From assembly GCA_003558235.1 (NCBI GenBank), contig PWMI01000052.1:1-41587 (forward strand): a stretch of 41,587 nucleotides of DNA. Reading direction: 5' to 3'. Shown here in pieces: positions 12,522 to 21,628 of the stretch. The translations under genes were made by a program, and so were the position numbers. Under the pieces are notes generated by a model. That model did not search any database and was not told the DNA's origin. It saw only the letters and a list, made by a program, of their open reading frames with translations. The stretch's first letter is position 1, and every line of letters begins with the position of its first letter. This DNA comes from Candidatus Iainarchaeum sp. GTDB taxonomy: Archaea; B1Sed10-29.

Positions 12522-15500
12522 ATGCCTTTAACCATAAGCGCCACCCTATCAACAATGGGGATACTAGGAATAATCCAAACACTCATCATCCCATTCCCAC
12601 CACTAGCATCAGGAATGGGGCTAATAACATCCATCCAAATAATAAACCAAGCCTCAGAAAGAATCTCAAAACTAGAAACCCCCATCGCAACAGAACAATA
12701 CATTAAAAGACACTACATTAACGATGAAACCAGCAGATACGTTAGACAAGCATGGGAAAACGCAGATAAAGCCAAAGAAAAGATAAACAAAGCAGAAAAA
12801 ACCATCAGGAGCACTACAGCAATGGGAAGCGAGTTTAAAACAATCGCTAAAGCAATGAAACCATATAGAGAAGCCTCAAAACACTATAAAATAGCCTTAG
12901 AAAACTCCAAAAAAGTATACGAAGAGATAGTGAAGGACATAGTCAGAAAAAACAACAAGTTAAAGTGGATGGGGGCAGATAGAGATTATACAGGTCCAGC
13001 AAGCCAGATGCATGAGAAGACACAAGAAATAATCTTAAAAATAAATCAAGAAGGAGAATGTACAGGTAAAAAAGACATAGCAACAACATTAAGCTGCCTA
13101 ACCTACAAAGTAAGGCAACAAAGAGAACTAAACCCAGAAATATTCAACGAAATACTCGCACCAGAAGAATCGATGCTATCACGCTACCACAATCTCAAGA
13201 AAGAAATAGACAAAAGCATCAGAAACATGCAAAGAGAACTAGAATCAAACCAAAAATACTACCAAGAAAAAGAAGACAAAGTAAACAAGTACCTAACACA
13301 CTTCGAAAGAGAAGGCGTCCTAAACATAAACCAGAACCCGGGAACAGGAAAAAGCCAGATAATAACAACCGGAATTGCTGGATCTCCGAGAGCAAAACTG
13401 ATAAACATACAAAATAGAGTATCAAGAGCACAGATACTAAAACAAAAAGCAGAATCAATAAACGAACTTAAAGAAGAAGGACACGTAGCAAAAGCAATCA
13501 AAACATACAAAGAAGCTAACTCAGAACTTAAAATTAGCGAGAAAGGAGTAGAAGACCTCGAAAAAAGACTAAAAGAAATAGAAAACTATTACATATTGGA
13601 AATAGAGAATAAAAGAACCCAACTAAGAAAAACACTAACTACCCCTTACATGGCAGCTGTACAAAGGAAGATAGAGACAGCTAAAGAAGAAAAAACCTAC
13701 AAACAAAGGATAAGAAGATTATCCGAAACTCTAGAGTACCTAAAATCCCTCGAAAAACTAGATCAAGACGGCATAGTAACAATACAAACAGAAATGAAAA
13801 ATCTAGAAGAAGACCTAAAAGAATACATCTCCATGGGATACAACCTGGAAGACAAACTAGCAAAACTAGAGCACCTAAAACGAATAAAGGACCCTGAGAT
13901 GATACCTGGGGTCTACGAAACCCTCCAAAACATAAAAAAAACAACTGAAATAAGGCTAACACCACTGAAACAAAAAATAGAAAGTAAAAGAGAACTAGCG
14001 GACAAGTACATAAGATCAGCAGAGACACTCAACACCAACACCCACACCAAAAACAGAATAGATCAAATACAACTCAGAAACCTCCGACAAGATTACAACG
14101 AAGCAGCATACAGAGACACACTAAAAAACCCACAGGAAAAAATACAGACCTATGAAACAATAATAAACACAGTCAGACCAGCCATAGACCAGTTAAAATC
14201 ACAACTAATATCCTCAAACACAGAAATAAACGTAGAAACAATAAACTCAGCAAAATGCAATGAAGAAGTAATCCAAAAAATCACCATAGACATAAACAAC
14301 CCACTACCAATAACCCTCTACGACACAAAAATACAGAAAGAACTCCCCATCGTAATTGGGGAAACAAGAACCATAGAAACATGGGAAAAAGGAATAAAAG
14401 TGAACCAGAACATCCTCAATCCAATGCAACAAGAAAGAATCACAGCAAAAGCAAAGATAACACCCTACACCTGCGAAGAGATATCTAAAAAAACCCTATC
14501 AGCCAACGAAGCAGAGACAACGAAGATGAAGGAAGTACTAATCAAAAAACATGCAGCAATGGACAAAGTAAAGATAGAAACAGGACTAGAAAAAAACAAC
14601 ATAGTACACCAACCGATAAATTCAGAGTTCAAGGATGGAAACGTTATACTAGAAACACCTTGGGAAGAAAAAACCATAAAAATAACGTACCGAAAACCCA
14701 CGGAAATAACCATAAAAGAAGAGAAACAAACAACGAACGAAGGAAAGATACACCACAAGATAGAGCTCTTTAACGCGGGACCAAGCATACACAACTTCAC
14801 AGTAACCAGAAAGATAGATCCAATAGGAACAATAGAAAGCAACCACAACTTTGAAAAAATACAAAACCACGTAGAAATAAAAATTCCACTCCTAAAAAAC
14901 CATGAAATAATAGAGATAACATACCTAGCAAAAAACCTACAACAAGAAGCATTGACCCTCATAGTAGATCTCGAAGTAGCAAACGCAACCAAAGAAACCA
15001 CCAGAAACCAAGAAACACAACTAAAAAAACTCATAGGGCACTACGAAGCAGGAAGATACAACGAAGTGCTTAAAGAAGCACCACAACTACTGAATGAAAT
15101 AAAGAAGATGCCCGAAGAAACATACTCTCAAGAAGAGACATCCTACTCGGAGCAAAAAGATGAGAAAGACATAGAAAACCAATACGATGGAGAAATCCTC
15201 CGAATCAACGAAAAAATAACTCAGGTAAGCCACTTCAACGAAGCAAAAGAACTAAAAAACAGATTGAACGAAATAAAGGAACAAAATGACTACAATCAAC
15301 TAGAAAAACTAAGAAAAGAAATAAAAGAGATGGAAGAACAAACGATAGATAAAATAGTCAATGAAGGGTACTCGGAGATCGAAGAAGCAGTAAAGAAGCT
15401 AGAAAAAGCCTTCAACCTTGAAAAAAGCTATGAAATAGATCAATCTACACCATATGGTCCAAAAGACCTGGAAAGCATTCGGGAGAGGTACGAAGAAATC

Positions 15501-15938
15501 CAAGAAAACAGGCCCTCTACAACGTTAACAACATATAACCTACAGAGCCTAATTGACTCAAAAGGACTAGAAGACCTAAAAAGGCTCTTGAGAAATCGTG
15601 AGGATCTTCTTCAAGATACAGAAGCCCTAATAAGAAACATGGAAAGAACCGCCATGACTGAAATGGAGATAGCTGCTGAGAAGTACAGTAACGCAGAGAA
15701 CGAACTAAATGCCAGGTGGTTAAAAAGAACAAAAGAACACTACCAGGAGGGAGAGTACCTGAACGCAATCGCAGCTGCAAAAAAAATCGAAGATGGTTCA
15801 ACCAGCAAATGGAAAGCATTTCCAATAAGATACCTAGTAGCGGGTGCAATGCTATCTGGAAGCATCTTATACTTCCTCAAGAAACCGAGAAAAAAACCCA
15901 GGAAACCAATAACCATGAAACTAAAAAGAGGGAGCTAG
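12522..15938 (+). CDS. 1138-aa coiled-coil protein with N- and C-terminal TM segments and internal beta-rich domains
   Basis: N-terminal hydrophobic LSTMGILGIIQTLIIPFPPLASGMGL; multiple heptad-rich blocks; beta-rich stretch around residues ~560-810 (KIELFNAGPSIHNFTVTRKI...); C-terminal RYLVAGAMLSGSILYFL followed by KKPRKKPRK. Confidence 0.8.
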   Translation: MPLTISATLSTMGILGIIQTLIIPFPPLASGMGLITSIQIINQASERISKLETPIATEQYIKRHYINDETSRYVRQAWENADKAKEKINKAEKTIRSTTAMGSEFKTIAKAMKPYREASKHYKIALENSKKVYEEIVKDIVRKNNKLKWMGADRDYTGPASQMHEKTQEIILKINQEGECTGKKDIATTLSCLTYKVRQQRELNPEIFNEILAPEESMLSRYHNLKKEIDKSIRNMQRELESNQKYYQEKEDKVNKYLTHFEREGVLNINQNPGTGKSQIITTGIAGSPRAKLINIQNRVSRAQILKQKAESINELKEEGHVAKAIKTYKEANSELKISEKGVEDLEKRLKEIENYYILEIENKRTQLRKTLTTPYMAAVQRKIETAKEEKTYKQRIRRLSETLEYLKSLEKLDQDGIVTIQTEMKNLEEDLKEYISMGYNLEDKLAKLEHLKRIKDPEMIPGVYETLQNIKKTTEIRLTPLKQKIESKRELADKYIRSAETLNTNTHTKNRIDQIQLRNLRQDYNEAAYRDTLKNPQEKIQTYETIINTVRPAIDQLKSQLISSNTEINVETINSAKCNEEVIQKITIDINNPLPITLYDTKIQKELPIVIGETRTIETWEKGIKVNQNILNPMQQERITAKAKITPYTCEEISKKTLSANEAETTKMKEVLIKKHAAMDKVKIETGLEKNNIVHQPINSEFKDGNVILETPWEEKTIKITYRKPTEITIKEEKQTTNEGKIHHKIELFNAGPSIHNFTVTRKIDPIGTIESNHNFEKIQNHVEIKIPLLKNHEIIEITYLAKNLQQEALTLIVDLEVANATKETTRNQETQLKKLIGHYEAGRYNEVLKEAPQLLNEIKKMPEETYSQEETSYSEQKDEKDIENQYDGEILRINEKITQVSHFNEAKELKNRLNEIKEQNDYNQLEKLRKEIKEMEEQTIDKIVNEGYSEIEEAVKKLEKAFNLEKSYEIDQSTPYGPKDLESIRERYEEIQENRPSTTLTTYNLQSLIDSKGLEDLKRLLRNREDLLQDTEALIRNMERTAMTEMEIAAEKYSNAENELNARWLKRTKEHYQEGEYLNAIAAAKKIEDGSTSKWKAFPIRYLVAGAMLSGSILYFLKKPRKKPRKPITMKLKRGS

Positions 15939-17223: not shown

Positions 17224-18504
17224 CTAAGGATAAACCCGTGTTATGGTCCTTGGAAAACCAATAGTCTCCTTTATATGGCTTCTTTTAAACATCCACATCA
17301 ACATTCTTTCCAGACCAAGACCAAAACCAGAGTGAGGGACTGAACCATATTTCCTAAGGTCAATGTACCATTCATACGCATCAGGATCCATCTTATCTTC
17401 TTCTAACCTGCTTAATAGCTCATCAAGTTTCCATATTCTTTCAGAACCCCCGATTATTTCACCGTATCCTTCAGGAGCGAGTATATCATCACAAAGTACA
17501 ATCTCTCTTCCATCCTCCTGGTCTTTAGGCATGTAGAAAGGTTTTATTGATTTAGGGTAGTTATATATGGTGACTGGGACCTCCTGGTCACTTGTAAGTT
17601 GCTTCTCGTGACCGGTTCCAAAGTCTTCTCCCCAGGAGATGCTTGATCCTTTCTCTTGAAGTTCTTCCACTGCTTCAGTGTAACTTAATCTTTTGAAAGG
17701 AGGCTTAACTTTTTTGAGGGTCTCAGGATCTCTTTTGAAGTATCTTAATGTATCAGGGTGGTTTTCAGCTAGTCCCTGTGCAACGTGGGAGATCATCTCC
17801 TCTTGGAATTGAATGTTTTCATTGCTCTTAAACCACGCCATCTCTGCTTCAAGGTGCCAGTACTCTGTTAAGTGTTTGCTCGTTCTTGATTTCTCCGCTC
17901 GGAAACTCGGTGCTAAACAGTACACTCTTTCCAGGAGAGTCATGAATGCCTCCAAGTAAAGCTGTGAAGATTGAGTTAAGTAAGCAGTATCTCCGAAGTA
18001 GTCCAAGCTGAATAGAGTGGATCCTCCTTCAACCCCTGCCTGAGTGGTGATGGGGGGTTGAACTTCATAGAAATCCTTGCTTGAAAAGAAGTCACGAAGT
18101 AAATCTATGGTTGCCTGTCTGCCCTTTAGCATCTTCCGCATATCCTCGCTTCTTAACCAGAGGTGCCTAACGTCCATGAGGAAAGATTCACTGGGTTTTT
18201 CGGTTATCGGAAACTTCTCAGATTTGTGTATGTGCTTGAAGTCTTTCCCCATAACTTCATATCCACCAGGTGCCCTTTCATCCTTTTTTACTATCCCAGT
18301 TATCTCTACACTTGATTCTACTAGCGTGTTTTTGGCTTCCTCGAAACCAGGGGAGTCTTTTTTAAAGGTGCATTGAACGGTTCCAGTAGCGTCTCTGAGT
18401 ACAATGAAGGCCATCTTCTTCGTTGATCGCTCTCTATAGACCCATCCTCGCAGTAAAACTTCTTTTCCCTCTTTTTCCTTGATTTCCCCTACTTTCGTCC
18501 GCAT
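17224..18504 (-). CDS. asnS: Asparaginyl-tRNA synthetase
   Basis: OB-fold N-terminus LLRGWVYRERSTKKMAFIVLRDATGTVQC; YLTQSSQLYLEAF (AsnRS-type rather than AspRS-type); SGFGLGLERMLMWM motif 3; GFPRT. Confidence 0.9.
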   Translation of the reverse strand: MRTKVGEIKEKEGKEVLLRGWVYRERSTKKMAFIVLRDATGTVQCTFKKDSPGFEEAKNTLVESSVEITGIVKKDERAPGGYEVMGKDFKHIHKSEKFPITEKPSESFLMDVRHLWLRSEDMRKMLKGRQATIDLLRDFFSSKDFYEVQPPITTQAGVEGGSTLFSLDYFGDTAYLTQSSQLYLEAFMTLLERVYCLAPSFRAEKSRTSKHLTEYWHLEAEMAWFKSNENIQFQEEMISHVAQGLAENHPDTLRYFKRDPETLKKVKPPFKRLSYTEAVEELQEKGSSISWGEDFGTGHEKQLTSDQEVPVTIYNYPKSIKPFYMPKDQEDGREIVLCDDILAPEGYGEIIGGSERIWKLDELLSRLEEDKMDPDAYEWYIDLRKYGSVPHSGFGLGLERMLMWMFKRSHIKETIGFPRTITRVYP

Positions 18505-18580
18505 TTAACCACCATCATTTAATTCATGTGTTACTTATTTAAAATATGTTCCAACATTACGTAAAAGAGGGGTGTTTTGA

Positions 18581-19732
18581 GTGAGTAAGAAAGATAAAGG
18601 CAATTCAAAAGGATCTTTAAATATGCTTAGGGATAGAGAGAATCACTATAGGGGTATACTAAGGAACATGGGTTTCAAAGAAGTGATAAATTCCTATACT
18701 ATTCCAAAGAGGGACATAGAGCTTCAAGGACTAGGTAAGGAAGAGTATTTGTCGACCAGAGAGGGTTTCATCCCACTATGTCCAGAAACCCCATGGTTGC
18801 CCCTTATGAAGGTTGCTAGGAAAAATCTACCTCTCCCTATAAAGATGTTCGCCATTTCCCCGGTTCCTTTCAAGCAACATCATCTTTCCATTGGAATTCT
18901 AAGCTTTGAAGATGCTTCACAGGACTACTCAACTATGATTGAGAACGTAACAAATGTTTCCAGTACCAATGTAAAGTACCTGAAAACGGACGCTGCCTCA
19001 TCGTTACGTTCTGCAGGAGGTTGGAAAGATGTATTCTACCGCTCCGAAAGGATAGGGTCCCGAGGGTTCATTCCTTCGGAGGTGCTGGTTAACTACAGTA
19101 TAGATGAGCCACTCTTTGTACTGAACATTGACTTAGTTTCACTTATCTCCCTGAAACAGGGTATGAGTAAAGAAGAGGTACTTTATCCTCATCCTTCCTT
19201 GGAGTTCTCTTTCAGCGATAAAGAGATAGCAGAGACAATGGGGGTGAAGGACTACCCTAAAACAGCGATGGGTAAATTGATATCACGTAAAACCAAGAGA
19301 GAGGTTCTTAATATGAGTAGGGGGGGTTTGAAGAAAGCTAAGTTGTTTAGTTACGAGGTTCCTGAGAGAGGGGTGATTACAGGGTGGATCACTAATGCTA
19401 GAGAGGGAGGAGCGATTGCTTCAGAAGTATTTGACGAGTTCTACATTTGGGATAAGAATCTTTACCTAATCCCAAGGTTCTCAGGAGGAGGTGCGATACG
19501 GGAGGTCAGAGAGAAAGGTGCTCCAACAGGCCTAACGCTCTTGGATGCATTAGCAGACAAAGTAGCGTTCGAAGCTGAGTCATTGAGTGAATGGCGTAAA
19601 TCAATAGGATTTAGAAGTATTAAATCTCCTGAAGAAGCCAACGTATGTTTGCCTGGGAATGTGAGGTCTATTCTAAGTCCAATAGACTTTGAAGTGGACC
19701 TGGATCTCGATGTGGTAATCGAGGTCGTCTAA
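18581..19732 (+). CDS. SepRS-like class II aaRS-fold protein, probably catalytically degenerate
   Basis: GFKEVINSYTIPK, KVARKNLPLPIKMFAISP, FVLNIDLVSLISLKQGMSKEEVLYPH and C-terminal GGAIASEVFDEFYIWDKNLYLIPR...GAPTGLTLLDALADKVAFE resemble SepRS segments, but motifs 1, 2 and 3 are not canonical. Confidence 0.6.
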   Translation: MSKKDKGNSKGSLNMLRDRENHYRGILRNMGFKEVINSYTIPKRDIELQGLGKEEYLSTREGFIPLCPETPWLPLMKVARKNLPLPIKMFAISPVPFKQHHLSIGILSFEDASQDYSTMIENVTNVSSTNVKYLKTDAASSLRSAGGWKDVFYRSERIGSRGFIPSEVLVNYSIDEPLFVLNIDLVSLISLKQGMSKEEVLYPHPSLEFSFSDKEIAETMGVKDYPKTAMGKLISRKTKREVLNMSRGGLKKAKLFSYEVPERGVITGWITNAREGGAIASEVFDEFYIWDKNLYLIPRFSGGGAIREVREKGAPTGLTLLDALADKVAFEAESLSEWRKSIGFRSIKSPEEANVCLPGNVRSILSPIDFEVDLDLDVVIEVV

Positions 19733-21628
19733 CTAGATTAATCTCAGTGAATCTAGGTTATGTAGTACCTGTGTGTCGGTGTGGAACTTGTAGTTTATGC
19801 TCTTGGCGAGGTTCTTGCACTTGTTTTCTTCCCCGTGAATCGTTAGGACTTTTTTGGGGGTTGGAGTTAGTTTTTTGAAGTACCCCAGTAACTCGTTTAT
19901 GTCTGCGTGTCCACTGAATCCTTTTATCTTCTCAACATTCATGTTTAGTTCATATTCCTTCATCTGCCCGTTGTTGTCGGGTAGTGCTATCTTGTCTGGT
20001 TTTCTTTCTACTTTTCGCCCAAGTGTTCTTTGTCCTTGGTAACCTACTGAGATTATTGTGTTCTTTGGATCTTCACATGTTTGTTTGAAGTATGACAGTA
20101 TGGGTCCCCCGTCCATCATTCCACTGGGGGAGAGTATGACTGCTTTTCCTCTGTCTACTATCTTGTCTCTTTCACGTGGGTCTACTCTTTGGAAGATCTT
20201 GGAGTCAAATGGGGAGTCCCCGTGTAGTATTCTTTTCTTCACGTTTCTTTTTAGGAACTCAGGATAGGCTGTGTGTATTGCGGATGCTTCTTTGGTCATT
20301 CCGTCCAAGTAAACGGGTGCGTTGAAGTTTCCTTTTCTATAGTTCTCTTCTAGAATAAGCATTATTACTTGAGCTCGTCCTACGCCAAATACTGGGATTA
20401 GTACAAGACCGTTTTTATCTACTGTTTTTGTCACTACGTCCATAAGTTTTTTCTTACTTTGCCTTGTGTCTTCTTGTTTATCTTGTTGCCCTCCGTACGT
20501 GCTTTCGGTTAATAGCGTTTCTGCTCGTGGGAACCTTGTGTGTGCGGGGTTAAGTAGTTCGGTGTATCCAAATTTAAAGTCACCTGTGTATATGAGGTTG
20601 TGTTCACCTTCTCCTATGTGGATATGGCTTATGCTTGATCCTAGTATGTGTCCTGCGTTGTAGAGTGTTAGCCGCATGTCTGGAGTGATGTCTGTTACTT
20701 CTCCGTATCCTTTCGTTACTGAGTGTAGTATTTCTTTTTTTATGTTTTTTTCTGAGTAGGGTGTTTTTTGTCCTTCTCTTTTGTTTATCTTCACGTAGTC
20801 TTTTTGAAGGAGGGTCATGAGGTCCCTTGTGGGTTCAGTTGAGTAAACTGGTCCTTCGTAGCCGTAGTTGTATAGGTATGGTACGAATCCGCCATGGTCT
20901 AGGTGGGCGTGGCTTACTACTACTGCGTCCAGTTCATCTAGGGAGAAGTTGATTGTGCTGAGTAGGGGGTATGCTTCTTCTCCTTCGACTCCTAGTTTTA
21001 TTCCGCAGTCGAGCATTATTTTACTGTTTGGGGTTTCAAGTAGGAAACAACTTCTTCCGACTTCTCTGCTTGCTCCTAGGGAGGTTATTTTGACCCACTT
21101 TATTTCTTCTGGGGGTTCTCGATATATCTTTTCCCCTAGCTCGGTTAGTATCTTTTTTCTTTCGCTTCCTTCATTTATCATCATCTGGCGAATTGCTTTT
21201 AGGGTGGTGGATTCGCCGGTTGGTATTCTCTGGAGCTTTGGTTTCCAACCTGTTTTTATGTTGATCTTTTTTATGGTTTTTCCGCCTTTTCCTATTACTA
21301 ATCCTAGTTTATCCGCGGTGATTACTACTTCGTTGAAGTCTGGATTGAACTCTATTGTTTGTATCTCTGCGTCGGAGGGAACTATTTCTTTGATCATCTT
21401 TTCGGCTCTTTCTGGGGGTTCGAGCATCGAGTCATCTGCTCGTGGAACGAATCTTTTTTTGAAGTTCTCTGCGAGGTGTTTTATTATGTCTCCTTTGTTC
21501 AGAAGTTTTGAGATGTTTTTTGAGTACAGAACGAGGTCTGGTCCTTCTGCTTCTACTTTTGTTAACATTGCTTCTGGGGGTGTTGCGTCCTTTATTTTTT
21601 CTTTTAGTTCTTCTAGGTATGTGTCCAT
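19733..21628 (-). CDS. aCPSF1: KH-domain metallo-beta-lactamase/beta-CASP transcription-termination ribonuclease
   Basis: N-terminal KH region (VVITADKLGLVIGKGGKTIKKI); HAHLDHGGFVPYLYNYGYEGPVYSTEPTRDLMTLL; GFSGHADINELLGYF; LTIHGEENKC. Confidence 0.95.
   Translation of the reverse strand: MDTYLEELKEKIKDATPPEAMLTKVEAEGPDLVLYSKNISKLLNKGDIIKHLAENFKKRFVPRADDSMLEPPERAEKMIKEIVPSDAEIQTIEFNPDFNEVVITADKLGLVIGKGGKTIKKINIKTGWKPKLQRIPTGESTTLKAIRQMMINEGSERKKILTELGEKIYREPPEEIKWVKITSLGASREVGRSCFLLETPNSKIMLDCGIKLGVEGEEAYPLLSTINFSLDELDAVVVSHAHLDHGGFVPYLYNYGYEGPVYSTEPTRDLMTLLQKDYVKINKREGQKTPYSEKNIKKEILHSVTKGYGEVTDITPDMRLTLYNAGHILGSSISHIHIGEGEHNLIYTGDFKFGYTELLNPAHTRFPRAETLLTESTYGGQQDKQEDTRQSKKKLMDVVTKTVDKNGLVLIPVFGVGRAQVIMLILEENYRKGNFNAPVYLDGMTKEASAIHTAYPEFLKRNVKKRILHGDSPFDSKIFQRVDPRERDKIVDRGKAVILSPSGMMDGGPILSYFKQTCEDPKNTIISVGYQGQRTLGRKVERKPDKIALPDNNGQMKEYELNMNVEKIKGFSGHADINELLGYFKKLTPTPKKVLTIHGEENKCKNLAKSINYKFHTDTQVLHNLDSLRLI

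Follow-up and report, generated by a model that had tools for sequence, protein, structure and literature searches.

The question raised by this locus is what a protein related to SepRS does once the residues that define a class II aminoacyl-tRNA synthetase (aaRS) have gone. The window, the whole 41,587-nucleotide stretch of Candidatus Iainarchaeum sp. DNA analysed here, contains a 383-aa open reading frame with a GTG start and a TAA stop (Table 1), which a first-pass annotation described as a shortened SepRS-like aaRS paralogue with all three class II motifs apparently degraded. The SepRS-like character is clearly supported by three agreeing searches. The protein matches the NCBIfam sepS model over residues 168-334 (E=3.1e-10) and the sequence of the SepRS structure 2du5 in the PDB (E=2.7e-8), and with its predicted fold as query the ten best Foldseek matches in the PDB are all SepRS (best 2du4, E=2.2e-22); mainly PylRS and PheRS come after them. 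Its sepS score of 39.1 bits does not reach the curated cut-off (TIGR00470, 380.65 bits). These matches are far above chance similarity, which we rejected, and an origin from PheRS is the weaker candidate (pheT_arch E=0.06 versus sepS E=3e-10); a PheRS-alpha-like gene (L001) is present separately in the same genome. Two sister genomes (G001 and G002) encode homologues of 388 aa that are 31-32% identical to the window protein over the full length. The window gene is thus a shortened descendant of SepRS. The AlphaFold2 model, built from a 14-row alignment, has a mean pLDDT of 72 and a pTM of 0.47, with pLDDT mostly 72-91 in the C-terminal domain and about 59-61 in one loop of it. The whole-chain rmsd is high (about 20 Å), and how the model places the domains relative to each other is therefore not to be relied on.

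Table 1 Features of the degenerate SepRS-like locus in the window
Feature	Position	Strand	Basis
asnS, asparagine--tRNA ligase, full length	17224..18504	-	TIGR00457, 405 bits, over cut-off
Divergent intergenic region shared with asnS, 76 bp	18505..18580	.	coordinates; divergence also in G001, G002 and G006
Degenerate SepRS-like gene	18581..19732	+	ORF, sepS HMM, PDB SepRS (sequence and fold), G001/G002 homologues
Former motif-1 helix and strand (GFKEVINS), residues about 14-42	18620..18706	+	alignments; helix 15-29 in model
Class II catalytic core remnant, residues about 79-208	18815..19204	+	alignments, column counts, core strands in model
C-terminal domain, homologous to the SepRS anticodon-binding domain, residues 209-383	19205..19729	+	alignment, profile search, model
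aCPSF1 beta-CASP ribonuclease, convergent	19733..21628	-	TIGR03675, 827 bits; synteny

The window protein shares with SepRS its ancestry, the fold of the C-terminal domain, the LPLPIK segment and part of the class II core. It differs in the absence of motifs 2 and 3, of the Asn-X-Gly element, of the anticodon-reading glutamates and of a SepCysS partner, and in scoring far under the family cut-off. The landmarks noticed at first sight are in place: LPLPIKMFAI at residues 83-92, VINS from residue 35, NIDLVSL at 182 and the C-terminal domain from about 209. Motif 2 (F-R-x-E; FRREQ) is missing, its segment being either deleted or reduced to PFKQHH in the alignments, and the sister proteins read IFDGF and LFNSF at this position. 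Motif 3 (G-x-G-x-E-R; GLGVER) and Asn-X-Gly are likewise gone, NLGLGVERLA having given way to VLNIDLVSLI in the window and to YLNIDIASLI and YLRLDLASVL in the sisters. The distance from VINS/VINP to LPIK is 50 residues compared to 138 in canonical SepRS, so about 88 residues are absent between motif 1 and LPLPIK, close to the block of roughly 100 first estimated. The reported loss of the motif 2 and motif 3 catalytic residues therefore stands in alignments that include the sister proteins. This does not extend to motif 1, which is the best-kept N-terminal part of the protein. The sisters read VLNP here and the proline is also absent from some intact SepRS (AINK in G005), so its loss from the window protein means little, and a degraded motif 1, and with it the claim for all three motifs, cannot be upheld; in these alignments motif 1 is not clearly degraded. 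Judged from the motif 2 and motif 3 residues and the missing core block, catalytic activity would be lost in the window protein, and the earlier suggestion of a non-catalytic protein is probably right. A comparable arrangement is the catalytic-like module of PheRS beta, a class II core without catalytic residues that has a structural use there and gives a weak profile cross-match; the window protein differs from it in that its best matches are SepRS and its C-terminal domain is of the SepRS type.

The fold of the SepRS anticodon-binding domain is present in the C-terminal part of the window protein according to profile, alignment, model and Foldseek, and the structural residues D358, P371, G376, P444, G456, E476 and N499 (reference numbering) are kept in 10/10 degenerate proteins. 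The anticodon-reading glutamates, E418 and E420 of A. fulgidus SepRS as identified from the E418N/E420N mutant with opal tRNA (PDB entry 2DU5), are conserved across the canonical SepRS set. At least one of the pair is missing from each of the ten degenerate proteins, with some uncertainty over the exact column in this short loop, and the window protein has T and A in reference columns 417 and 419. This implies that any tRNA bound would not be read as SepRS reads tRNA-Cys, and on these residues binding of tRNA-Cys by the degenerate proteins is doubtful. The charge of the domain gives no clear RNA-binding signal; with a pI of 5.4 in the window, the domain is not basic, and this speaks weakly against RNA binding.

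Our sample of the class (and phylum), which belongs to the DPANN archaea, comprises 19 genomes, and 10-11 of them contain degenerate SepRS-like proteins. These form a gradation from full-length proteins (461-542 aa; G008, G012, G013 and G016 of family f7, and G017 of f10), through the 383-388 aa form of the window and its sisters, to G006, where the C-terminal domain (192 aa) is all that is left. The long versions have all lost Asn-X-Gly, and their motifs 2 and 3 are eroded to varying degree. One copy appears to be split across two contigs (G015) and another is a fragment at a contig end (G010). No SepRS-like gene was found in 7/19 genomes, three of which are at most 85% complete. A scan of genome contigs gave no match with the window protein as query and succeeded when the aligned f7 and f10 proteins were used instead. 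Outside the phylum, we searched with a profile of the C-terminal domain, which matched 141/397 archaeal genomes, and examined sequences from most of the matching families. All 61 outside-phylum SepRS in our tree are canonical, with R-[RN]-E in motif 2, the motif-3 Arg and Asn-X-Gly all kept. Our sample shows the degenerate form only in the DPANN phylum of the window. Short copies elsewhere (G353, G278, G312, G395 and G378) were rejected as domain-only forms, as all of them reach contig ends. A separate variant, SepRS with GLGR for G(L/V)ER in motif 3 and hence without the Glu but with the Arg, forms a single clade from records titled Methanomicrobia and Aenigmarchaeota and one further genome (L159:1326-2861, L160:8001-9536, L161:8001-9386 and L245).

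Among the 19 genomes, an intact SepRS over cut-off occurs in G005 only, and SepCysS is found solely beside it; no genome that carries the degenerate form has SepCysS over cut-off. In the window's genome, which is 82% complete, the search for SepCysS gave nothing beyond an 18-bit match in a 410-aa frame, and that for a second, canonical SepRS gave only a PheRS-alpha-like match. The proposed derivation from SepRS thus holds, and the status of paralogue is unproven: as a second canonical SepRS was not found, the window gene may be the remodelled original. CysRS is over cut-off in 16/19 genomes and accompanies the degenerate form in every genome, as a 208-aa partial sequence in G002. In the window's genome (CysRS 491 bits, G000:C87:33822-35261) the tRNA-Cys(GCA) looks normal, has G37 and U73, and is found 0.3 kb upstream of cysS. 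Three further tRNA-family matches in this genome (L278, L279 and L285), which span 120-130 bases and which ARAGORN does not call, are probably intron-containing tRNA genes. In G005 (L130, G005:C24:3000-22000), intact sepS, SepCysS, two cysteine desulfurase-like genes, an iscU-like gene and cysS lie within about 14 kb, which places direct and indirect cysteine charging together in a single DPANN genome.

A maximum-likelihood tree of 71 rows, comprising nine degenerate sequences, the 61 outside-phylum SepRS and the intact SepRS of G005, separates the nine from all other rows by a branch with support 98/94. The clade spans several families. Since long branches meet at this clade, attraction may contribute to the grouping. 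The nearest canonical row is the SepRS of G005, and its position beside all the degenerate rows rather than within its own order may reflect duplication, transfer or an artefact. Gene order lends independent support to common descent. Families f7 and f10 share the order KaiC-like gene, SepRS-like gene, TIGR00297-type membrane protein gene, eS1 gene; in f10 aCPSF1 and the proteasome are also near, and this same neighbourhood holds the gene in f1 and f5. A neighbour that resembles Bud32 by eye is common to f9 and f7. In G008 the gene lies near iscU, iscS and cysS, as intact sepS does in G005, with a cysteine synthase in place of SepCysS. This cysteine synthase (L132:11784-14552, G008:C26) is divergent from the least degraded of the SepRS-like genes, SepCysS being nearby in G005, and looks like a replacement of the tRNA-dependent route.

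The first-pass annotation knew of no described family of degenerate SepRS; however, such homologues, including C-terminal-only forms divergent from asnS, were reported by Mukai et al. 2022 (PMC8762117, section 3.3.2). Our literature search, to which subscription journals were mostly closed, found no later paper on degenerate SepRS-like proteins. Compared by description, the window gene is of the same kind as those homologues. Like the degenerate SepRS of 'Micrarchaeota' Alv-FOS5 and pISA35 (PMC8762117), it is SepRS-derived with degenerate catalytic residues, and like these groups it has a DPANN host whose aaRS set appears complete, CysRS being present in the window's genome. It shares with the pISA35 type an asnS in the opposite direction (PMC8762117). 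Whereas those forms are either full-length or reduced to the C-terminal domain (PMC8762117), that of the window is intermediate, with 383 aa and a remnant core. The SepRS-like proteins of Thermoplasmata and of a Deltaproteobacteria-like group also have an altered Asn-X-Gly and were proposed to have a non-Sep role, and Thermoplasmata have no SepRS or SepCysS elsewhere beside them (Mukai et al. 2022, PMC8762117). By description the window protein resembles both in its altered Asn-X-Gly and differs in its neighbours, asnS and aCPSF1 in place of TRAX or recJ. The Thermoplasmata proteins were not identified in our sample of 397 archaeal genomes.

The explanation that we favour, and regard as moderately probable, is a non-catalytic pseudo-synthetase, a binding protein that acts through its former anticodon-binding domain. 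It would be a SepRS descendant unable to activate phosphoserine. With SepCysS gone and CysRS charging a normal-looking tRNA-Cys, SepRS would have been freed from its former job. One ancestral degenerate version, without the Asn-X-Gly pocket and some ATP-binding residues, would have been retained across much of the phylum; its catalytic core would then have been trimmed in the window's family and wholly lost in another. The persisting part would be the former anticodon-binding domain, accompanied in the window by the motif-1 element and a core remnant that may hold the protein as a dimer or oligomer. The C-terminal domain may bind tRNA-like RNA or a translation protein, making the protein a helper in translation. 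Action through this domain is favoured because no other part is common to all forms and because its structural residues are conserved throughout; the role in translation is suggested by the ancestry and by neighbours that are largely translation genes. More tentatively, we suggest a pseudo-synthetase inherited vertically across the phylum that would have acquired a new, non-catalytic function in translation. It would have been born at the switch from SepRS/SepCysS to CysRS, and its stepwise reduction to the bare C-terminal domain would still be visible in living lineages.

Fast evolution (end branch 2.06), repeated shortening and the several genomes of the phylum without the gene, which imply that it is dispensable in some lineages, could instead point to a decaying pseudogene without function. 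We consider this most improbable, as every complete copy has an open frame, the copies form one clade across several families, and G001 and G002 have a dN/dS of about 0.20 (dS = 1.84, near saturation) with no indels over 388 codons at 54% identity. This ratio and the lack of indels suggest a protein that is probably functional. Compared with asnS and aCPSF1, its dN is three- to fivefold higher, and on these estimates the gene evolves fast but is not decaying. A repurposed ligase, which would activate another amino acid and transfer it to tRNA or another acceptor, is very unlikely; Mukai et al. (PMC8762117) suggested such a role for the Thermoplasmata proteins, and some full-length relatives that have lost Asn-X-Gly keep a partial ATP site (FRRIDD in G008, SVERLA in G013), but the window protein and its sisters lack the motif-2 loop and have another residue in place of the motif-3 Arg, and G006 has no core whatsoever.

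The absence of a core from G006, which kept the C-terminal domain, also argues against a regulator or sensor that would bind an amino acid or nucleotide and control another enzyme. HisZ, a class II core remnant that controls ATP phosphoribosyltransferase, offers an analogy for such a use, and the position of the G008 gene, divergent from cysteine synthase and near cysS and iscS, would be compatible with it. No partner gene is common to all lineages, however, and cysteine synthase was not detected in the window's genome, so we think this role quite unlikely. Nor is the protein likely to serve specifically in asparaginyl-tRNA synthesis, for instance by binding AsnRS as a subunit or by presenting tRNA-Asn. 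Such an accessory role would account for the divergent region of about 76 bp shared with asnS, whose extent and whose asnS identity, the latter confirmed by NCBIfam, agree with the first-pass annotation. The gene is divergent from asnS in four genomes of one order, with gaps of 76 bp (G000, the window's genome), 56 bp (G001), 42 bp (G002) and 208 bp (G006), and the C-terminal-only forms of Mukai et al. 2022 (PMC8762117) are arranged in the same way. Elsewhere, among genomes with both genes located, this divergence is absent: the f7, f9 and f10 copies have as neighbours KaiC-like, eS1 or (by eye) uS15 and KEOPS-like genes, which makes the pairing weak evidence of a functional link. AsnRS is ordinary and full length in the window and G006, and genomes that lack the SepRS-like gene also encode it, again with an ordinary length. 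In one of these (G004) asnS adjoins aCPSF1, the flank conserved in G001, G002 and G006, so the SepRS-like gene fills a slot in an otherwise conserved order. The link to asnS may be functional, but position alone suffices as an explanation. An in-frame TAG, from assembly error, recoding or mutation, interrupts the asnS of G015 (L139:3506-4777, G015:C63) and leaves parts of 227 and 193 aa.

New here are the intermediate form, the wide spread in one phylum, the single clade and the selection estimate, as well as the findings that SepCysS is absent and that the anticodon-reading glutamates are lost. The isolated degenerate sequences of the literature thereby become a conserved family with graded forms, from eroded full-length proteins to a lone C-terminal domain. 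This makes the fate of a synthetase after replacement of its pathway directly testable, and small expressible proteins (192-388 aa) are at hand for tracing the retained function. Elsewhere in the window, positions 12522-15938 (+) encode a coiled-coil-looking protein of 1138 aa with no NCBIfam match; it is conserved in G001, G002 and G006, next to the same kinase gene in each.
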